Positions 3,364 through 22,337 are shown, counted from the first letter of the stretch. The stretch is DNA of 45,201 bases from Terriglobia bacterium (GCA_020072765.1 JAIQGD010000044.1:1-45201), one strand, 5' to 3'. Program-made: numbers and translations. Notes: generated by a model from the letters alone, not told the origin.

Positions 3364-4391
3364 CCACGCTCGTCACCGGAGCGACGGGTTTCGTGGGAAG
3401 CCACGTGGCCCGGCAGCTCCTCGCCGCAGGTCATTCGGTGCGCGTCCTGGTGCGCCGTTCCAGCAACCAGCAGGCGCTCGAGGGCTTGGCGGTGGAACGT
3501 GCGGAAGGTGATTTGCGCGACCTGCTTTCCCTGGGCCGCGCGATGAAGGGCGTCCGCTGGCTGTTCCACGTGGCCGCCGACTATCGCCTCTGGACGAAAG
3601 ACCCCGGCGAGATCTACCAGACCAACGTCGAGGGCACGCGGCGTCTGTTTGAGGTTGCGGCGGAATCCGGCGTCGAGCGCATCGTATACACCAGCACGGT
3701 GGCGACCATCGCCATCCCGACCCATGATGGTGCGCTTCCCACCGAAGATACGCACGCCACCATCGAACAGATGGTCGGCCATTACAAACGTTCGAAATTT
3801 CTGGCCGAGGTCGAAGCCATCCGCGCCGCGGCCGCTGGCGTTCCGGTCGTGATCGTCAATCCCACCGCGCCCGTCGGACCGGGTGACTGGAAGCCGACGC
3901 CCACCGGCCGGATTCTCGTCGATTTCCTGAATGGCAGAATGCCCGCTTACGTGGACACCGGCCTGAATGTGGTGGCCGTCGAAGACGTCGCGGCGGGGCA
4001 TCTTCTGGCCGCCGAAAAGGGCCGCATCGGGGAGCGCTACATTCTGGGCGCCCGCAACATGGCCCTGAAGCAGATTCTGGACGCGCTGGCTCCCATCGCG
4101 CATCGCCCGGCGCCGCGCATCCGGCTGCCGCATGCCGTCGCGCTGGCGGCTGGGTATGCGGATGAGTTGTTTTCACGGCTCGTTGGCCGCGAGCCGCGGA
4201 TTCCGCTGGAAGGCGTGCGGATGTCGCGCCATCGGATGTTCGTGGCGAGCGACAAGGCCGAGCGGGAACTCGGTTACCGTCCCGGCTCGGTGGAAGCCGC
4301 GCTGGAACGCGCCGTGCGCTGGTATCAGGCGCACGGATACGTTAGCGGGAATGCGCCGACCAAACCGGCCGTGCATGCCGCGGCGGCCTAG
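3360..4391 (+). CDS. hpnA: Hopanoid-associated NAD-dependent epimerase/dehydratase HpnA
   Basis: Extended short-chain dehydrogenase of the sugar epimerase type found in hopanoid clusters; its exact substrate is not settled. From the ATG at 3360 the protein is 343 aa with an N-terminal Rossmann motif GATGFVG (7-13), a YTSTVAT strand carrying the catalytic Ser/Thr, and a YKRSK motif that matches the YxxxK catalytic pair. The reading frame is open upstream of 3360, but the Rossmann fold begins at this ATG and the ATG overlaps the hpnH stop, so the longer version is not supported. hpnG follows after 8 bp. Confidence 0.93.
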   Translation: MTTLVTGATGFVGSHVARQLLAAGHSVRVLVRRSSNQQALEGLAVERAEGDLRDLLSLGRAMKGVRWLFHVAADYRLWTKDPGEIYQTNVEGTRRLFEVAAESGVERIVYTSTVATIAIPTHDGALPTEDTHATIEQMVGHYKRSKFLAEVEAIRAAAAGVPVVIVNPTAPVGPGDWKPTPTGRILVDFLNGRMPAYVDTGLNVVAVEDVAAGHLLAAEKGRIGERYILGARNMALKQILDALAPIAHRPAPRIRLPHAVALAAGYADELFSRLVGREPRIPLEGVRMSRHRMFVASDKAERELGYRPGSVEAALERAVRWYQAHGYVSGNAPTKPAVHAAAA

Positions 4392-13421: not shown

Positions 13422-13598
13422 ACCACCCTTGAAAATGGAGCCGGCCCGCGGCCGGTCCGCGGCGCCTCCCGCGCTGGTTGCTCGTTTCGCGCGCGCACGC
13501 TAGAATCAACGGACGCGAAAAATAGACGCGGAATCGTTCGTGCCAGTCTGCCAAGCCCGCTACTTCGGGCGCCGCAACAGCACGCGCCTCCACGCCTC
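13422..13598. other. Host region upstream of the interrupted tRNA-Lys
   Basis: 177 bp without a gene. It holds a very GC-rich stretch after the hpf stop (possible hairpin of GGCCCGCGGCC type), the candidate tRNA promoter at 13478-13506, and a small hairpin GCCCGCTACTTCGGGC near 13554. Nothing else is recognised. Confidence 0.5.
13478..13506 (+). promoter_or_regulatory. Probable original promoter of tRNA-Lys, now stranded
   Basis: TTGCTC (13478-13483), exactly 17 bp, then TAGAAT (13501-13506). It points at the truncated tRNA copy at 13599, with a leader of about 85 nt. Before integration this sequence would have stood in front of the complete tRNA gene. Confidence 0.45.
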
Positions 13599-13638
13599 AG
13601 GGGCGTAGCTCAGTGGTAGAGCAGCGGCCTTTTAAGCC
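13599..13638 (+). repeat. attL: 40-bp 5' fragment of tRNA-Lys(UUU)
   Basis: Perfect 40-bp copy of the first 40 bases of the tRNA gene at 19785: acceptor strand, D arm, anticodon loop CTTTTAA and part of the anticodon 3' stem. After AAGCC it departs into element sequence, so no T arm or acceptor 3' strand follows and this copy cannot make a tRNA. The repeat marks the left end of the integrated element. Confidence 0.92.
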
Positions 13639-13887
13639 AACTTGAGCGCCCCGCAACGCAACGCACCAAAACGCAGCACAGCGAAAACAGCCCTTGTGTA
13701 TAGGCCTTTGGTGAGTTTTCATCGCGCAGTGCCGCGCACCGTGGCGAAGCAAAACGAAAAGCCAACCGACACCACTACCGACACCAACGTGGCGCGTTAC
13801 AGGGCGTTTTGGGTAAGCTGAGGCTTGTCACGCCGGTAAGACCGCCCTACGGGCTTCCTGTGCGTGAAAAGGGGCAATCGCCGCGCA
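13639..13887. other. Left-end non-coding region of the element
   Basis: About 250 bp between attL and the first gene. It contains one copy of a 22-bp repeat also present near attR (candidate integrase arm site) and a GCCCTACGGGC hairpin around 13845 that could end the leftward operon. A short open frame across the repeat reads like the tail of the integrase (PTDTTTDT), so a gene remnant is also possible. Confidence 0.5.
13764..13785 (+). repeat. Left copy of 22-bp repeat (candidate integrase arm sites)
   Basis: Two copies of the nonamer ACCGACACC separated by ACT, identical over 22 bp to 19685-19706. It lies 126 bp inside the left core repeat. Paired short direct repeats flanking the core are typical of arm-type sites of tyrosine integrases. 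Confidence 0.6.
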
Positions 13888-14544
13888 TCACTGTTGCGGT
13901 TGCGCGGTGCGCGGAATGAACGTGAAGGCGTTACGTTCCACTTTCTTGACTTTGCATTTTCCCCAATCTATGTCCTTGGGTCCAAAGTCCTCGGATTCGC
14001 CCACGATGCGCTCCAAGGATACAGTGCTCAGTATTGCATGGGTTTTGAGCGAGCAGGTTTTGTTCTTGCGGAACATTTGCTGTTCGGAAAAACGAGAAAC
14101 ATTCAAATAATCGAGGCAGTCCCAGATTCCGGGAGATGTTCCTGGGGCGCATTCCATACTGCCCGACCAATTTGCGCCAGGCGGCACGATTCTAAAGATG
14201 TAGATGTGATCGTCGGACATGCGGACATGGTAGGAGTTGCCCGATTTGACGCTTACCCAGGCATCATGCGAAGACAACTCGGCAGTGAAGCGATCCACAT
14301 CGCGACGCATAGCCTCGGCTGCGGCTCGATTGCGCTCCGCAATGAGCATCGCCACTTGGGGAGTCACTAGTGGCGTCTGGGGAGTTGGCGGCGGTACGTA
14401 GAGTGGCGCAAAGGGAGGCGCGGTTTGCGTCGTGGACTGGCAACTGATTTGATTCCCAATCACCGTACAATTGGTATTGGTGGTTTGAGCCTTCGCGGGG
14501 GCGATGACGACCAGAAGCGCGAAAATGAACACGATATGTTTCAT
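13888..14544 (-). CDS. Secreted protein of unknown function (element cargo)
   Basis: A 218-aa protein from the ATG at 14544, preceded by a good GGAGG (complement of 14550-14554). It opens with a classical signal peptide, MKHIVFIFALLVVIAPAKA, probably cleaved at AKA|Q. After a short Thr/Asn/Cys stretch and a Pro-rich linker (PPFAPLYVPPPTPQTP) comes a mixed domain with conserved-looking cysteines (MECAPG, WDCLDYL, KTCSLKT, GKCKVKK). I do not recognise the family. It is the last gene of the leftward operon and looks like cargo rather than replication machinery. A start 16 codons upstream is possible but would bury the signal peptide. Confidence 0.7.
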   Translation of the reverse strand: MKHIVFIFALLVVIAPAKAQTTNTNCTVIGNQISCQSTTQTAPPFAPLYVPPPTPQTPLVTPQVAMLIAERNRAAAEAMRRDVDRFTAELSSHDAWVSVKSGNSYHVRMSDDHIYIFRIVPPGANWSGSMECAPGTSPGIWDCLDYLNVSRFSEQQMFRKNKTCSLKTHAILSTVSLERIVGESEDFGPKDIDWGKCKVKKVERNAFTFIPRTAQPQQ

Positions 14545-14621
14545 GGCGTCCTCCGTCGAGGCCATTCTCCTACCCCGATGAGCGCAAGGCAAGAACTACG
14601 CTTCCTTCTCCGCCAGTTCCC

Positions 14622-14954
14622 TCAACCGCCGCATGTCGCTGCTTCTCCGCTGTTCTCAGCGAGTGAATGTTCACTGTTTTGAGAGGCCCTCTCACTGGAT
14701 TCGCTTCCAACATTAGCTTTTGTTGATAGTCCCAACTTGATTCCCACATAGAAAAGTTCCGCCTTGGCCCGTGCTTCGCGCTCGATCAACTGCGCCGCTT
14801 CCTTCGGGAGCCTCTTGAGTATCCCTTTCAGCGTGGTGGGTTTGCGGCCCGCGCCTTCGCGTCTCCCGCCGTGGTTCGTCCATGCACACTCGTCCAGGGG
14901 GAGCTTCCTGGCGCGTCTCATTCGCTCGCAATTCAAACAAACGTCGTTTTCCAT
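14622..14954 (-). CDS. Small basic protein with GGxREGAGRKP motif
   Basis: About 110 aa from the ATG at 14954, which has GAGG eight bases upstream; an ATG at 14978 adds eight residues without a clear ribosome site. The N terminus has CLNC and a third Cys (DEC), followed by NHGGRREGAGRKPTT, a glycine/basic motif common in small phage and plasmid DNA-binding proteins. A helical region (LKRLPKEAAQLIEREARAKAELF) and a Ser-rich tail follow. Function unknown; a DNA-packaging or regulatory role is only a guess from the motif. It lies about 70 bp beyond the TubC-N-like gene in the same direction. Confidence 0.6.
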   Translation of the reverse strand: MENDVCLNCERMRRARKLPLDECAWTNHGGRREGAGRKPTTLKGILKRLPKEAAQLIEREARAKAELFYVGIKLGLSTKANVGSESSERASQNSEHSLAENSGEAATCGG

Positions 14955-15024
14955 CTTTCTTGCCTCAAACTGCCCCATCCGATGCTCGAAATGCCTGTTT
15001 CGTTCCTGTTAGCAGGCATTCCGC

Positions 15025-15321
15025 TCATTGCGGTCTGCCTTTCCCTTCCAGCCACGCCCGCCAGCGCAGGAAAGCCTCGCCACAGCGGGGCGGGTGAATC
15101 TTCCGGCCCTCTCCCACGTCGTAGCATCCGGCGCAATAGGGCGAGCCGCAGGGGGCCAGTTCCCGAAGAGCGGCAATCACTTCCTCGCGGCGGGCGCGTA
15201 GTTGCTCGACAAGTCGAGGCGCGTCAGGGATGCGGGGTAGCCGGAAGTGGATGCGTTCCCCGCGAAGGGTAAGCTCCCCGCCTATCTCCCTCACGCTGGC
15301 AATCAACTCCTGGGTGTTCAT
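15025..15321 (-). CDS. Small TubC-N-like protein with cysteine-rich tail
   Basis: A 98-aa protein. The first 55 residues (TQELIASVREIGGELTLRG...) have the spacing of the TubC N-terminal docking-domain family, often found next to primase/helicase genes of mobile elements. The second half has a zinc-finger-like cluster, CGSPYCAGCYDV followed by HPPRC. Its ATG overlaps the stop of the DUF3631 gene (ATGA at 15318-15321), so it is translationally coupled. Role unknown; coupling suggests it acts with the replication proteins. The family match is from memory and should be checked by profile search. Confidence 0.65.
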   Translation of the reverse strand: MNTQELIASVREIGGELTLRGERIHFRLPRIPDAPRLVEQLRARREEVIAALRELAPCGSPYCAGCYDVGEGRKIHPPRCGEAFLRWRAWLEGKGRPQ

Positions 15322-16736
15322 AGCTCCCCCTCCAGAGTCCCCTCCTTACCCTCTTCAGTCCCCCTAATAGGGGTCAAAAGTGTCACAACGTCACAACGCC
15401 CGTCAGTATTGGCGATTTCGCATTTTTGAGCCGTCACGTCCGTTTCCGCGTGATACTTTGAAAAATCGCTGGAAGGCCCGTAAACATTAGCTTGTGACGC
15501 TGTGACGTTTTGAAGGCCGATACGAGGAAGATAGCGGGTCCAGGCATCCTCGAAGTCGGTTCGCTCATACCCCCGCTGGTTTGGACTCCCCGCGATGCGC
15601 TTGACGGTGGGGGTGATTCCGAAACGGGACAGGAGGCGGGCCAGCTTCGCGGGCGTCAGTGGTTTCCCCTTCGACCATTCGCCCCACGGGGAGGTTTCGA
15701 TCTTACCCAGTGCCTCCGCTAAGTCCGCCGAGGAGATACGCTCGCGCCGGGGGTTCTCTTCGTCGCCGCCCAAAACAGCGCGAATGTCGGCCAGAAGCCG
15801 CACCCCCACCGACTCATCCCCTTGCGCAGCCCCGAAGATTTCCAACAGGGCCGCCTGAGACTCTTTCGGCCATTCCCCACCTGCCGCGTCCGCAATGGCT
15901 AGGAGCGGTTCCACCACGTCCTGCTGACGGTCGGAAAGGCAGTCGGGGAGCAAGGGACGGGCTTGCGCGAGTGAGTCAACAACCATGGAGGACCATTTCT
16001 CAATTCGCTCGCGGAGTGGCGCTACTTCGCTTTCCACATTGCGCCGCCTGAATCGCGCAACAACTTCTCCTGGCGCGGCCCTTCTGAGCCGAATGGGGAT
16101 CGAACGGTCTTCCACTGTGTCAGGGAGCTTTCCAATTCCGGCAATCGCCTTTGGGCAGAATGTCGAGAAGTCCTTGAACGTGATTTGCGCACCTTGTCCC
16201 ACACACAAAGATGCCTTGCCATCGCCCAGATAGCCGGTATTCAAGATTCCGCGTAGGGCCTCGGCGTACTCTTTTTCGCCGTTAAATGCCGCATCGCTTT
16301 CGTCCAGCAGCAGCGTAGGATGCTCGGCGTCCACCTTGCGGACAAGCACCGCCGCCGTCACCCGCCCCGTCATCCACGGATTGGCGACCGTGATCTTCAG
16401 GACTTCCAGCAGTCGGGTTTTTCCACATTGCTTCTCGGCGGAATTGATATTCAGGTAGGGCGTCACATCGAAGGAAGAAATAACGTGCGTGTGTAGAATC
16501 CAGAGCGCGAGTGCGGTTGCCTGGGCATGAGACAACACAACGTACCGCTGCACAAAAGAGCGCAAGTCGCGGAGAAGTCCGGCCCCGTCTTCGGCTGGCC
16601 GTGGCCGCTCGATTGCGCGTGACGGAAGCGAGAGATGGGCGTCCACTTCGGCGCGAAGCTCGGGATGCTCGCGGAGCGTTTCGCGGGCTTCGAACATGCG
16701 CTTGCGTTCCAACGCGGCGAAGGGATTTGAAGTCAT
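15318..16736 (-). CDS. DUF3631 P-loop ATPase / replicative helicase-like protein
   Basis: A 472-aa protein with a P-loop core: Walker A NSAEKQCGKTRLLE (K106, T107), Walker B TLLLDESDAAF (D145, E146), and motifs SFDVTPYLNI before and STFCPKAIAGIGKLPDTVEDRSIPIRL after, all typical of DUF3631 proteins of phages and integrative elements. These are thought to act as replication helicases with a primase partner. The C-terminal third (about 330-472) looks like a winged-helix/DNA-binding region and a variable tail. The ATG at 16736 overlaps the stop of the CHC2 gene (ATGA); the frame is open 10 codons further, but that start is less likely. Confidence 0.85.
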   Translation of the reverse strand: MTSNPFAALERKRMFEARETLREHPELRAEVDAHLSLPSRAIERPRPAEDGAGLLRDLRSFVQRYVVLSHAQATALALWILHTHVISSFDVTPYLNINSAEKQCGKTRLLEVLKITVANPWMTGRVTAAVLVRKVDAEHPTLLLDESDAAFNGEKEYAEALRGILNTGYLGDGKASLCVGQGAQITFKDFSTFCPKAIAGIGKLPDTVEDRSIPIRLRRAAPGEVVARFRRRNVESEVAPLRERIEKWSSMVVDSLAQARPLLPDCLSDRQQDVVEPLLAIADAAGGEWPKESQAALLEIFGAAQGDESVGVRLLADIRAVLGGDEENPRRERISSADLAEALGKIETSPWGEWSKGKPLTPAKLARLLSRFGITPTVKRIAGSPNQRGYERTDFEDAWTRYLPRIGLQNVTASQANVYGPSSDFSKYHAETDVTAQKCEIANTDGRCDVVTLLTPIRGTEEGKEGTLEGEL

Positions 16737-17395
16737 TGGCCGGGCACCTCGAAGCGATAACCGCATTCATCGGCGACAAAGCCGTCCTCAAGGGCGGCGT
16801 CAATTAACGCAGGGCGCAACTCAGGATGCAGCGCGAACCGTGCCCGAACGGAAGGCGCAGCGAACGCAATCAGCGCATAAGCCGCATCAGCCCTGCGCAG
16901 CGCGCCACAGGCGAACCGCAAGCCATCTTCCGCGATGCTGGATTTTGGTCCCGGCGGTTCCAGCATGGCGATTGCCGCGCGCCAGATTTTGCGAAGCGAT
17001 TCAAGTTCGTCCGCCAACTCAAGCAGGAGGCCGTGCTCCGCGTGGGCGAGCAAATCGGCGGCGTGCTCTTCGGCCTGGCGCTCTTGCCGCAATCGCTCGG
17101 TGTCGGCCCGTTTGTCTTGTTCAAACTCGACGCCTGCCAGGCTGGCAAGGAATCGGAGTGCTTCGCCGAACGAGCAACTGCGAACTGCCCGAATGAGCGC
17201 GATTCGATCTCCGCCTGCGCCGCACGAATGGCAGCGCCATAGCCCAGAATCCGTCCACGCGAATGCGGATGGATTCGAGCCGCCGTGTAGGGTGCAGGCG
17301 CAGCGTCGTGTTCGCTCGTTCACGACGAAGCCAAGCGACGCGAGTAAGCGCGGCATCGCCACGAGCGCCGTGATTTCGCGGGCGTCACCGTGCAT
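16733..17395 (-). CDS. CHC2 zinc-finger primase-like protein without visible TOPRIM
   Basis: A 220-aa protein. Residues about 30-65 form a DnaG-type CHC2 zinc finger: C34-x2-H37 and C55-x2-C58, with the usual HGGSNPSAF and CGAGGDRIAL surroundings. A long helical, Glu/Arg-rich region (95-140) and a C-terminal domain of unknown type follow. No TOPRIM catalytic motif (EG..D..) is evident, so it may deliver the template-binding part only, with catalysis elsewhere or lost. It overlaps the HTH gene by 11 bp and the DUF3631 gene by 4 bp. Confidence 0.82.
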   Translation of the reverse strand: MHGDAREITALVAMPRLLASLGFVVNERTRRCACTLHGGSNPSAFAWTDSGLWRCHSCGAGGDRIALIRAVRSCSFGEALRFLASLAGVEFEQDKRADTERLRQERQAEEHAADLLAHAEHGLLLELADELESLRKIWRAAIAMLEPPGPKSSIAEDGLRFACGALRRADAAYALIAFAAPSVRARFALHPELRPALIDAALEDGFVADECGYRFEVPGQ

Positions 17396-17603
17396 CGCCG
17401 TTACCGCCTGGCTTGGAGACAGGTGAGGGTTGGTCTGACCGCAAGAAGCTTTCTAGTGCGCGGATGGGTACGATGGTTCTGCGGCCCAGCTTCCGGGCCG
17501 GAAGAAGTTTTGCGGCGATGTAGTTTTGGACGGAGCGAGGCGAAATGCTGAGCATCGCCGCTGCCTCGCGAACGCTGACGGCGATCTTGTTGGTTTGTCC
17601 CAT
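17385..17603 (-). CDS. Excisionase/AlpA-like helix-turn-helix protein
   Basis: A 72-aa protein with a MerR-type HTH_17 domain: VSVREAAAMLSISPRSVQNYIAAKLLPARKLGRRTIVPIRALESFL. This matches excisionase/AlpA-like regulators, which bend att DNA or switch element operons. It is the first gene of the leftward replication operon. A TATCCT box ends seven bases before its ATG (complement of about 17611-17616), so this mRNA could also lack a leader. The tail after residue 60 is Ser/Pro/Gly-rich. Confidence 0.82.
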   Translation of the reverse strand: MGQTNKIAVSVREAAAMLSISPRSVQNYIAAKLLPARKLGRRTIVPIRALESFLRSDQPSPVSKPGGNGDAR

Positions 17604-17674
17604 GACGTGCAGGATAAAGCTCCGGCACGCATGATGAACATAGCGCGAGGCAAACCGTTTTCGGCAGGAAAGTG

Positions 17675-18379
17675 CTATCTCTTGGGAACTTTGCGTTTTT
17701 GGCGGAAGCGGGCGTCGATAAGGGTCTGCACGTCAAACCGTGGCTCGCCGTCGCGCTCGCCATTCAGCGCTAGGTCCACAGCGTCCAGAAGACCCAACAC
17801 TTCCGCGTCACAGACGTGTCCTGTGAGGGCTTTCACACGCCCTGACAGGTGGACCTTCCATTGCCGACGCTCGCTGCGCTTCACCCGATGCGCGAAGAAT
17901 GGAGTTCTCTTGATCCGCGATTCCAGCCAACCAGCATAGTCACGAAGGTCTGGGGGAAGTGGCCAGAATCGTCTCGCGTCCTTCTGGCCGAACCAGTCAT
18001 GGCAAAGCAACGTTTGCAGCTCAGCGGCCATTTTGCGAATGCGTTCGGGAAAGCCTTTCAGCTGCTTCCACGATTTTCCCGTGCCCGAGGCCCACGCCTC
18101 CTCCCAATCCGCGCTCCGCACCGGCATTCCGGCAGGCGATTTTCCCACAGCGGCGGCGGCCCACAGGCATACTTCATTCGCCATCGCGGGAGAAGCACCT
18201 CGTGAACTTCGCCGCGCCCATAACTCGGCGAGCGCTTTACGCACTCCGGGTTCACGCACAAGGTTACGAAGATCAAGCCCGAGCGAAAGCGCAACAAGCG
18301 CTGCAAGTCGGTCCTGGTCGGCATGTGCGACCGAATCGATTTGTGCTGTCTTGCGTTGGGTGCGCTTGCGTGCGGTCAT
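17675..18379 (-). CDS. Unknown protein of the integrative element
   Basis: A 234-aa basic, largely helical protein with no signal peptide or membrane segment. Visible features are a Lys/Arg-rich N terminus (MTARKRTQRKTAQ), a Trp-rich middle (ADWEEAWASGTGKSWKQLKGF, WFGQKDARRFWPLPPDLRDYAGWL) and a C-terminal helix followed by a basic end (RFRQKRKVPKR). I do not recognise the family. It diverges from the integrase module from a shared promoter region, and its ATG lies where transcription from the TTGTCA/TAGAAT promoter should begin, implying a leaderless mRNA. It could be a regulator or accessory factor; this is not shown by the sequence. Confidence 0.7.
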   Translation of the reverse strand: MTARKRTQRKTAQIDSVAHADQDRLAALVALSLGLDLRNLVREPGVRKALAELWARRSSRGASPAMANEVCLWAAAAVGKSPAGMPVRSADWEEAWASGTGKSWKQLKGFPERIRKMAAELQTLLCHDWFGQKDARRFWPLPPDLRDYAGWLESRIKRTPFFAHRVKRSERRQWKVHLSGRVKALTGHVCDAEVLGLLDAVDLALNGERDGEPRFDVQTLIDARFRQKRKVPKR

Positions 18380-18385
18380 GTGCGG

Positions 18386-18414
18386 ATTCTAGCACCTCTT
18401 CTTCTCCTTGACAA
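18386..18414 (-). promoter_or_regulatory. Leftward promoter of the unknown element gene
   Basis: On the - strand: TTGTCA (18414-18409), exactly 17 bp, TAGAAT (18391-18386). The expected transcription start, seven bases on, is the A of the ATG at 18379. Its -35 box overlaps the -35 box of the rightward promoter almost base for base. Confidence 0.65.
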
Positions 18415-18436
18415 CCCATCGCGTTAGGTTTATTGT
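18408..18436 (+). promoter_or_regulatory. Rightward promoter of the small zinc-finger gene and integrase
   Basis: TTGACA (18408-18413), exactly 17 bp, TATTGT (18431-18436). The expected transcription start is at about 18443, the A of the first ATG of the small upstream gene, so that gene would be read from a leaderless mRNA. Confidence 0.65.
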
Positions 18437-18442
18437 TGCTTC

Positions 18443-18592
18443 ATGCGATGCCCGGTTCACAACGTGAGACTGGTTTGTTTCTGCCCGGCCTGCCGAGGCT
18501 CGGCGCGCTCCAAGCAGAAGGCCAAGGCATCCCGGCGCAATGGCAGGCTCGGCGGACGCCCGTCGCAGAAAGGAAAGCACCATGCAAACTGA
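18443..18592 (+). CDS. 49-residue zinc-finger-like protein upstream of the integrase
   Basis: A short frame of 49 codons starting at the ATG placed at the predicted transcript 5' end. The protein begins MRCPVHNVRLVCFCPACRG, a compact C-x2-H and C-x-C-x2-C metal-binding pattern, followed by a very basic tail (SKQKAKASRRNGRLGGRPSQKGK) that would bind nucleic acid. It ends 11 bp inside the integrase gene, so the two are probably coupled. Possible roles are recombination directionality or autoregulation; neither is proved. Its composition and promoter placement argue that it is real. Confidence 0.6.
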   Translation: MRCPVHNVRLVCFCPACRGSARSKQKAKASRRNGRLGGRPSQKGKHHAN

Positions 18593-19751
18593 CACTGCGG
18601 CTCTCCCAATAGGGAAGACGGCAAGCAAGGAACGGCGCAGGCAGCGCGGCGTGTTCGAGAAAGTGCCCGGCTCAAGCACCTGGTGGATTCGCTACACCGA
18701 CGCCGAAGGACGCTTCCGGCGCGAGAAGGCGGGGACGAAAAGCGCCGCGATTGACCTCTACCGCAAGCGCAAGACGGATGCCCTCATCGGGAAGAAGCTC
18801 CCCGAAAAGCTCCGCCGCGCGACCGTCACGTTCGCCGACATTGCGCGTGACGCGCTGGCTTACTCAAAAGCGCACAAGCGCACCTTCGGGGACGATGTTG
18901 CCAGAATGGAGAGGATTCTTGGCTGGTTCCGCGACCGCTCCGCCGAGTCCGTCACCCCACAGGAGATTGAGCGTCACTTCGAGGAATGTATCGAGGTCGA
19001 GGAGTGGGCACCGTCCACGGTGAATCACTACCGCTCGCTGCTTTCGCTCACCTATCGGCTGGCCATTCGCAACGGGAAGGCTTCGAGCAATCCTGCCCGC
19101 GCGACACGGCACCGCAGGGAAGACAACAGCCGGGTGCGGTACCTGACCGATGCCGAGGACGGGAAGCTGCGGAACGCGATTGCCGAGGACTGGCCGGAGC
19201 ATATGCCGGAGCTAGACCTGGCCTTGCACACGGGGCTACGCCTCTCCGAGATGTACGGGCTGGACTGGCAGGACGTTGACCTAGCGCGGCGATTGCTGCT
19301 GGTGCGCCGGGGCAAGAACGGCCAGGCTCGCTACGCCCGGCTCAACTCCGTGGCGCTGAAGGCGCTCGGTGAATTGCGAAAGCGCAGCTACGGCACGGGG
19401 CCTGTGATTCGGAATCTCGCGGGTGAACCGCTCTGCGGGCCGCGCTACTGGTTCGAGAAGGCCATCCGCAAGGCCGGACTCGCCGACTTTCACTGGCACG
19501 ATCTCCGGCACACGTTCGCCTCGCGGCTGACGATGGCCGGGGTAGGCTTGCGCGCGGTCCAGGACGCCCTGGGGCACAAGAGCATTGCCATGACGGTACG
19601 CTATTCCCACCTCTCACCCGACTTCCTATTCGACGTTGTGGAGAAGCTCGTTCCACGGCCAGCTGACACCGTCTCTGCCGAGCGAACCGACACCACTACC
19701 GACACCGGGGCGCATCTGCCAGTAAACACCCAAGCGGTGCATGTGCAGTAA
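18582..19751 (+). CDS. int: Tyrosine recombinase (integrase)
   Basis: A 389-aa phage-type integrase. Residues about 20-60 look like an arm-binding/AP2-like N domain (STWWIRYTDAEGRFRREKAG). Residues about 80-170 form the SAM-like core-binding domain. The catalytic domain has the Arg in HTGLRLSEMYGLDW, the HxxR box HDLRHTFASRL, the second His in DALGHKSIAMT and the Tyr in VRYSHLSPDF. The ATG at 18582 has AAAGGA just upstream; the frame runs 14 codons further up but without such a site. The C-terminal tail (about 355-389) is encoded by DNA containing the right copy of the 22-bp repeat. The gene ends 33 bp before attR and reads towards the tRNA. Confidence 0.93.
   Translation: MQTDTAALPIGKTASKERRRQRGVFEKVPGSSTWWIRYTDAEGRFRREKAGTKSAAIDLYRKRKTDALIGKKLPEKLRRATVTFADIARDALAYSKAHKRTFGDDVARMERILGWFRDRSAESVTPQEIERHFEECIEVEEWAPSTVNHYRSLLSLTYRLAIRNGKASSNPARATRHRREDNSRVRYLTDAEDGKLRNAIAEDWPEHMPELDLALHTGLRLSEMYGLDWQDVDLARRLLLVRRGKNGQARYARLNSVALKALGELRKRSYGTGPVIRNLAGEPLCGPRYWFEKAIRKAGLADFHWHDLRHTFASRLTMAGVGLRAVQDALGHKSIAMTVRYSHLSPDFLFDVVEKLVPRPADTVSAERTDTTTDTGAHLPVNTQAVHVQ
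19685..19706 (+). repeat. Right copy of 22-bp repeat inside the integrase gene
   Basis: Identical over 22 bp to 13764-13785; two ACCGACACC nonamers spaced by ACT. A degenerate third copy (GCTGACACC) lies at 19662-19670. It is 78 bp from attR and encodes RTDTTTDT in the integrase tail. Candidate arm-type binding sites. Confidence 0.6.
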
Positions 19752-19784
19752 GTTCAATTCGTGTAAGATGTTATGAATGATTTT

Positions 19785-19824
19785 AGGGGCGTAGCTCAGT
19801 GGTAGAGCAGCGGCCTTTTAAGCC
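19785..19824 (+). repeat. attR: 40-bp repeat, 5' part of tRNA-Lys
   Basis: Perfect copy of 13599-13638, forming the 5' part of the intact tRNA gene. In this copy everything upstream of the tRNA, including any promoter, is element DNA. Confidence 0.92.
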
Positions 19825-19859
19825 GAAGGTCGTGGGTTCGATCCCCACCGCCCCTACCA
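19785..19859 (+). tRNA. tRNA-Lys (anticodon UUU)
   Basis: A complete 75-base gene with encoded CCA. The acceptor stem AGGGGCG pairs fully with CGCCCCT. The D arm is GCTC/GAGC, the anticodon loop CTTTTAA gives UUU, and the T arm has the GGTTCGATCC loop. The anticodon stem has four pairs plus a G-A at its base. The gene was rebuilt by integration: its first 40 bases come from the element's copy. A TAAGAT box at 19764-19769 is the nearest promoter-like sequence; readthrough from int is an alternative source of transcription. Confidence 0.96.
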
Positions 19860-20613: not shown

Positions 20614-22337
20614 ATGACCGCAAACGGTTGGCTGCAAATTGCGTTGTTCTTCGTGGTTCTCCTGGCCGTCACGAAGCCGCTGGGCGTCTTCATGGCGCGC
20701 GTATTTTCCGGCGAGAAAACGTTTCTCGACCCTGCCCTGCGGCCCATCGAGCGCTTGCTCTACCGGACGACGGGAATCGATGAAAAGCGTGAGATGGACT
20801 GGAAGGAATACAGCGTCGCGATGCTGCTCTTCAGCGGCGTGTCGATGTTGCTGCTCTACCTGATCCAGCGCGTGCAGCAGTGGCTGCCGTGGAACCCGCA
20901 ACATCTGCCCGCCGTGGCGCCCGATCTCGCGTTCAACACCGCCGCCTCGTTCACCTCGAATACCAACTGGCAGAACTACGCCGGCGAATCGACAATGAGC
21001 TATTTCACGCAGATGGCGGGACTGGCTTACCACAACTTCGCGTCCGCGGGTGTGGGCATCGCGCTCGCCATCGCCGTCATCCGCGGCATCGCCCGGCGGG
21101 AATCGAAAACCATCGGCAACTTCTGGGTGGATCTCACGCGATGCATGCTGTGGGTTCTGCTTCCGGCTTGCCTGCTGATTACACGGCCAGGCTGGTGAAT
21201 CCTCAGACGGTGCAAACCACGGGATCGGATGGCAAAACTACAACGCAAACGATCACCGATCAAGTGATCGCCCAAGGGCCGGTCGCTTCGCAGGAAGCGA
21301 TCAAGATTCTCGGAACCAATGGCGGCGGTTTTTTCAACGCCAACAGCGCCCACCCATTCGAGAACCCGACTCCCCTGACCGATTTCATGCAGATCGTCAT
21401 GATGCTCGCGCTCGGATCGGGCCTCACGTACACGCTGGGCCGGATGACGGGTTCACAGCGTCATGGCTGGGCCGTGTGGGCCGCGATGGCGATTTTGTGC
21501 CTCGTGGGCGTCACGGTGGCGTATGCCATGGAATCTCGTGGCAACCCTCTGCTGCACGGAATTGACCAACACACCGCCGCCATGCAGCCGGGCGGCAATA
21601 TGGAGGGCAAGGAAGTCCGCTTTGGGATTGCACCGACGGCGCTCTTCGCGACCACGACCACGGATGCGAGTTGCGGCGCGGTCAACGGGATGCATGATTC
21701 GTTCACGCCGATCGGCGGGCTGGTTCCGCTGGTCAACATCATGCTCGGGGAAGTGGTGTTCGGCGGCGTCGGCTCAGGGCTTTACGGTATGGTGGTTTTC
21801 ATCGTTCTCGCGGTCTTCATCGCTGGGCTGATGGTCGGCCGGACGCCGGAATATCTCGGGAAGAAGATCGAAGCGTACGACGTGAAGATGGCCATGTTGA
21901 CGGTCCTGATTTTCTGTCTCGTGATTCTCGTCTTTACGGCCGTCGCCGTGGCTTCATCCTTCGGCACCTCGTCCATTTCGAATCCCGGTCCGCACGGCCT
22001 CGCGCAAGTCTTGTACGCTTACACCTCCACGGCGGGGAATAACGGTTCGGCGTTCGCCGGGCTGAACGGGAATACGCTTTGGTACAACGTGAGCCTTGGC
22101 TTCAATACATTGCTAGGGCGGTTTCTAATGATCATTCCAGTGCTTGCCCTCGCCGGGAATCTGGCGCGCAAGAAACTCGTGCCGGAATCGGCGGGCACGT
22201 TTCCGGTGACGACGCCGCTCTTCACGATGCTCCTAATTTCCGTGATCCTGATTGTCAGCGCACTTACATTTTTCCCGGCGCTCAGCCTGGGCCCGATCCT
22301 CGAGCACCTGCTGATGCACGCCGGAAAGGTTTTCTGA
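20614..22337 (+). pseudogene. kdpA: kdpA, K+ channel subunit, interrupted by a frameshifting deletion
   Basis: KdpA is the channel-like K+-binding subunit of KdpFABC. All four selectivity-loop regions can be read: [47 protein letters not shown] and [10 protein letters not shown]. But the first lies in one frame (20614-21198, ending LLPACLLI then stop) and the rest in another, resuming at about 21177 with [15 protein letters not shown]. Family members have roughly 15-17 more residues here (a ..FLVSQG..QNF.P.. segment), so a deletion of a length that is 1 mod 3 (about 46 or 49 bp) explains both the gap and the shift. Either the pump is broken in this genome, or this is an assembly error. Confidence 0.85.

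Follow-up and report, generated by a model that had tools for sequence, protein, structure and literature searches.

The window analysed here is a stretch of 45,201 nucleotides from a Terriglobia bacterium (GCA_020072765.1, JAIQGD010000044.1:1-45201), and corresponds to contig C78 of G000, a metagenome-assembled genome (MAG) of a soil bacterium (3.78 Mb, 152 contigs, 96.6% complete). It carries a 6.2-kb tyrosine-integrase element that entered the front half of the gene for tRNA-Lys(UUU), and the gene's own promoter was therefore replaced. Confidence in the structure, the empty site and the displacement of the native promoter is high. Overall, the best explanation, which we hold with good confidence, is that an element targeting tRNA 5' halves supplies the promoter of the tRNA and that its decay may leave this promoter behind as a scar.

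Structure of the element and of its target tRNA gene

The element is bounded by an exact 40-bp direct repeat (13599-13638 and 19785-19824, spacing 6186), by a wide margin the longest between 12500 and 21000, which begins exactly at nucleotide 1 of tRNA-Lys(UUU) and extends through the anticodon stem-loop (nt 1-40). An original prediction, made from the sequence of the window without database searches, had claimed this duplication of the tRNA 5' part together with an intact gene only at the integrase-proximal end, and both were found. The copy at 13599-13638 (+ strand; attL, the left end of the element) is dead, being without the 3' half; the sole tRNA found by ARAGORN in the window is tRNA-Lys(ttt) at 19785-19859 (+ strand; 75 bits against RF00005), whose 5' part, to nt 40, comes from the element (attR) and whose 3' part comes from the host. 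The 6,186 bp between the repeat copies include genes for a tyrosine integrase, a helix-turn-helix (HTH) excisionase-like protein, a CHC2 primase and a DUF3631 protein. The integrase (403 amino acids, 18540-19751, + strand; PF00589, E=4.5e-30) reads toward the tRNA, has its stop 33 nt before tRNA nt 1, and carries the catalytic R-K-H-R-(H)-Y set (R234, K259, H320, R323, Y355), invariant in 14 relatives.

A displaced 5' fragment upstream of an intact tRNA gene (tDNA), in the same orientation and with the integrase between them, is the arrangement of the 5' tDNA islands of the Islander class; no displaced 3' tRNA fragment, the mark of a 3' tDNA island, was found around the element. The catalytic residues, the attL/attR direct repeats with an empty site in a relative, and the excisionase and arm-type sites (these by similarity) are those of a tyrosine-recombinase element. 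Unlike in regulated gene integrity, the target is not inactive while the element is integrated, since integration rebuilds an intact tRNA. Precedent and the end points of the repeats in relatives suggest that the crossover within the 40 bp lies in the anticodon stem-loop. No attP circle junction was present in IMG/VR, where its absence is uninformative. The 49 tRNA matches of this fragmented MAG, typed by ARAGORN and complemented with the window tRNA-Lys sequence as query, include one Lys(ttt) gene, the one in the window, and one Lys(ctt) gene (contig C133), which answers the question of copy number raised by the original prediction.

Empty site and displaced native promoter

The gene order HpnE - DUF72 - HPF - tRNA-Lys is uninterrupted in G001, a genome of the same genus, which provides the empty site; when the flanks of the element in the window are joined, they align across the junction to G001 over 669 bp (68.8%). 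The promoter-like sequence that had been placed before the dead half is present on the + strand, as TTGCTC (13478-13483) N17 TAGAAT (13501-13506); G007 keeps it as TTGCTCGTTTnGCGCnCGCACGCTAGAATCAA and G001 keeps part of it (local alignment score 46, shuffle maximum 19), and its -10 region, GCACGCTAGAATCAA, is identical in these two genomes. Because this sequence occupies the equivalent place in G001, with an identical -10 region in G001 and G007, it is taken as the native tRNA-Lys(UUU) promoter, now displaced. G007 has a 5'-type insertion of its own at this tRNA, distinct from that of the window and 9.0 kb long, and there too this native promoter is stranded. The claim that the region upstream of the tRNA is now element DNA and that the native promoter has been displaced agrees with the sequence (the empty site in G001 and the promoter-like sequence at the element end), which supports promoter replacement by the element.

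An integrase family with a 5'-side habit

A search for relatives of the integrase covered 61 genomes and GTDB contigs, and the best 80 were nearly all from Acidobacteriota. The integrase gene (int) reads into the 5' end of a tRNA gene on the same strand in 46 non-redundant loci, most of them classed by orientation and spacing and not by a verified repeat, and has the opposite (usual) orientation in nine. In the Islander report, 159 islands have a 5' tDNA fragment and 3,760 a 3' fragment (PMC4383910); compared with that rate, the 46:9 split gives a binomial p of ~4e-55, a value that ignores relatedness. Across the 46 loci the gap between the int end and tRNA nt 1 has a median of 23.5 nt (range -10 to 161), and 13 anticodon classes are targeted (Lys, Met, three Leu, two Arg, Asn, Asp, Phe, SeC and two Ser). 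Insertion on the 5' side is thus not an isolated case but characterises an integrase family.

A copy of the tRNA 5' half at the far end was verified in seven loci, including the window (35-36 matches out of 36, controls at most 23/36), and also in G007; identity in the verified repeats starts at tRNA nt -3 to 1, the gene 5' end, and stops within the anticodon loop or a little beyond it (nt 33-41). Six of the seven verified loci also share a near-identical arm-type repeat, located at -98 to -105 from the tRNA (-73 in L068) and at +113 to +129 inside the left end. In the window these putative integrase arm sites are AACCGACACCACTACCGACACC at 13760-13785 (+ strand) and its 96% match at 19681-19706 (+ strand), the latter inside int, where it encodes the conserved TDTTTDT tail (TDTxTDT across the family). 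One count weighs against the best explanation: of the 5'-type loci, 29 have 3 kb or more of upstream sequence, and the far 5' half was seen in only 7 of these. The remaining ones may be longer, cut or decayed elements.

The two orientations are interleaved in a quick integrase tree, with at least five changes. Close relatives of the integrase in the usual 3' orientation were observed in L067 (G055:C62; 3'-half repeat verified), L071, L069 and L118, and the side of the anticodon loop has therefore flipped within the family; since both orientations share one tree, the family can show what lets an anticodon-loop integrase change sides. Another locus, L061 (G038:C255), has a tRNA-Arg(tct) gene (oriented 3425-3500) that is immediately preceded by a family integrase and whose 3' half (nt 32-76) recurs exactly 8.4 kb further downstream (11839), so the two halves of this tRNA may derive from different elements. 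Most family members, in either orientation to the tRNA, end in VQ* or a near variant (window 19743-19751; alignment A1); the tRNA promoter as the sole constraint behind this ending was considered and rejected, because the opposite-orientation relatives end in the same way. The search for close phage or plasmid relatives of the integrase gave only matches under ~32% identity among the matches listed; viral contigs in IMG/VR (L189-L266) encode integrases up to 47% identical to that of the window.

Element-type promoters with and without an integrase

The DNA immediately before tRNA nt 1 is element DNA in every verified case and, with the host promoter stranded at the far end, the tRNA must be transcribed from element DNA. 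The candidate promoter (19742-19769, + strand) is formed by TGTGCA in the last int codons (19742-19747), N16 and TAAGAT (19764-19769), this last hexamer being the one predicted near 19764; a putative -35/-10 pair of the element would thereby stand upstream of the target, as in the elements of the dusA/SXT type. It scores 13.6, at the expected offset, with a position weight matrix (PWM) built from 13 elements at other tRNA genes (12 at non-Lys tRNAs, one at a different tRNA-Lys).

The same matrix was run on the tRNA-Lys leaders of related genomes. High scores were obtained in leaders where no family integrase was found on the 5' side: 18.7 in G008; 17.0 in G004 and G019; 15.2 in G029; 12.2 in G034; 11.9 in G025; and 10.8 in G005. 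All these high-scoring leaders have the block at -31 to -34 that is seen in the elements. Native-type tRNA-Lys leaders scored below zero in all but G033 (5.6), and the 30 native tRNA leaders of G000 had a maximum of 9.7 and a median of -4.7. An int-tail remnant (HVQ* or RVQ*), with no int body, directly precedes the promoter in G008 and in the displaced leader of G014, which scores 21.0. This last leader (L076, G014:C72, 7540-7660) lies to the left of a 10.7-kb element, with its RVQ* remnant and element-type promoter, and HPF is 5.2 kb further upstream; it is therefore an apparent old scar beside which a younger element has inserted. The integrase-free element-type promoters can tentatively be regarded as remains of decayed elements.

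An alternative, which we consider unlikely, is that the promoter at the element end was captured from a host tRNA-Lys gene, similar promoters elsewhere being native and not scars. The scar reading is weakened by G003, G006 and G015, in which tRNA-Lys, in an ordinary chromosomal setting, has a CATGTG..TAAGAT-like promoter, and capture is also favoured by G004 and G019, where the promoter stands next to HPF, the ancestral place. However, the first three genomes are negative on the element PWM, the block spans the int stop region and is common to elements inserted at tRNAs for Asn, Arg, Asp, Leu and Met, int-tail codons are kept in G008 and G014, and promoters of the TTGCGG..TACAAT type occur in other genera of the family. 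As a separate observation, the tRNA-Lys genes of G003, G006 and G015 (L279, L276 and L277) are downstream of rph-rdgB-EgtB/EgtD-like genes (named by eye from the open reading frames, ORFs) and not of HPF, so the gene has changed its chromosomal place within the genus.

Promoter or read-through as the source of the tRNA

The element-borne promoter is probably the main source of tRNA transcription. At the 46 loci, -10-like hexamers reach 2.12 per position between -20 and -12 (shuffled 0.36, sd 0.23) and 1.00 between -30 and -20 (shuffled 0.38, sd 0.23), are rare elsewhere, and peak at the same places as in the 30 native tRNA genes of G000. Two facts weigh against this source: a simple consensus scan omits TGTGCA-N16-TAAGAT, whose -35 is weak, and the gap between int and the tRNA is in some relatives too short for a whole promoter, so that read-through from int may matter more. 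The scan returned only two hits between 13420 and 20100, a divergent promoter-like pair at 18386-18436 (TTGTCA-17-TAGAAT, - strand, for the leftward genes; TTGACA-17-TATTGT, + strand, for int), a number that is not significant alone because shuffled sequences gave a mean of 1.6.

The corresponding alternative, to which we give a rather low probability, somewhat below that of capture, describes the element as an ordinary tRNA-targeted island of incidental 5' orientation, with the tRNA transcribed by read-through from int and with no dedicated promoter. The TTGACA-17-TATTGT sequence before int would suit it, as would the position of the int stop, which in nearly all relatives precedes the tRNA by 0-70 nt and in L068 abuts it; the stretch from int to the tRNA gave no terminator-like site, so some read-through may occur. 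What argues for the dedicated promoter is that element DNA, like the DNA at native tRNA genes, has its -10-like hexamers strongly clustered 12-30 nt upstream of the tRNA; moreover, to depend for an essential tRNA on transcription running on from int would be risky and would give a poor supply. A chimeric assembly or misbinning, conceivable in a MAG of 152 contigs because repeats are typical misassembly points, is very improbable, given the same architecture at many tRNA genes in independent MAGs and other organisms, the conserved arm-site geometry, and the joint match of both flanks to the uninterrupted G001 locus.

Proposed mechanism and relation to known systems

In the mechanism that we propose, the attP of the 6.2-kb element, whose integrase family is almost confined to Acidobacteriota, would carry a tRNA 5' half, and the element would enter tRNA genes through recombination in their anticodon stem-loop. 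As the sequence and the empty site show, an intact tRNA is rebuilt at the int end from the 5' half of the element and the 3' half of the host, leaving the host promoter and the dead 5' half stranded at the other end. The likeliest promoter of the tRNA would be built into the 50 bp at the right end of the element: its -35 would fall within the closing int codons and its -10 some 15 nt upstream of the tRNA, and read-through from int would possibly be added. The tRNA-Lys(UUU) is apparently indispensable to the host, and deletions removing the right end of the element would not be tolerated, because no other tRNA reading AAA was found in the MAG. Excision mediated by the integrase would give back the native promoter; on decay of the element, the int tail and the promoter would tend to persist as a scar driving the tRNA, as several relatives suggest.

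tRNA genes are preferred sites for mobile elements, which are usually seen as entering the 3' side and leaving tRNA expression alone. Among protein genes, prfC receives SXT in its 5' end. Insertions in the 5' halves of tRNAs form a known but rare minority class; a lineage that specialises in them and provides the promoter would be new. The Islander 5' class shares with this element the intact tDNA beside the island, the displaced 5' fragment at the far end and the integrase inside; the features seen here of a 5'-devoted integrase family, an embedded tRNA promoter and promoter scars are not described in the available part of that report (PMC4383910). No description of a 5'-favouring integrase family with a promoter in the int end, or of promoter scars, was found in the literature, of which coverage was partial, making this absence weak. 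Islands associated with dusA replace the 5' end of their target, and putative -10/-35 sequences have been reported before and after their insertion (PMC4482086). These islands and the SXT/R391 integrative and conjugative elements resemble the present element in replacing the 5' end of a target gene and providing its new upstream region, but their targets are protein genes, whereas here a tRNA gene is rebuilt exactly, so that the change is confined to promoter and leader and the product stays the same. ICEKp1, a 3'-end tRNA island, also has a tRNA target and a tyrosine integrase adjoining the intact tRNA, and the host tRNA promoter drives its int by co-transcription (PMC13023037). The present element is its mirror image: int and element DNA are upstream and are read in the direction of the tRNA, which is thus served by the element, the reverse of ICEKp1.

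If the element promoter does drive the tRNA, a mobile element would be a required regulatory part of a housekeeping gene; this would offer a simple route to stable element retention and a testable way for tRNA promoters to pass between species. It is conceivable, though we advance it with reserve, that this lineage turns over essential tRNA promoters in Acidobacteriota, through promoter swap, host dependence on the int end, a lasting scar and horizontal spread of tRNA promoters.

Other features of the element and its surroundings

The remaining genes of the element are all on the - strand. Next to the integrase is an ORF of 234 amino acids (17675-18379) with no family in the Pfam search, followed leftward by the HTH_17/AlpA-like protein, a putative excisionase (17385-17603; PF12728, E=6.3e-12; phrog_66 excisionase, E=2.2e-5), a similar one being near int in most relatives. 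Beyond it are encoded the CHC2 zinc-finger primase (220 amino acids, 16733-17395; PF01807, E=2.4e-9; phrog_360 DNA primase, E=3.4e-14) and the DUF3631 protein (482 amino acids, 15318-16766; PF12307, E=2.3e-48), whose role is likely replication-related. The left end includes three further ORFs: one of 98 amino acids (15025-15321), weakly TubC_N-like, under the Pfam cut-off, and with relatives in L109, L153, L064 and L067; one of 118 amino acids (14622-14978) with a weak phrog_8312 match; and one of 234 amino acids (13888-14592) with no family in profile searches.

A pseudo-tRNA at attL, suggested by a CGCCCC complementary to the acceptor 5' strand after the dead half, was considered and rejected, since it is absent in the other six verified elements; its fold is no better than that of shuffled sequences (z -1.2). 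Downstream of the tRNA, at 0.8 kb, kdpA (20614-22337) is apparently split over two frames (the ORF at 20614-21198 and the C-terminal part of the ORF at 20880-22337), with a frameshift or an assembly error near 21190.

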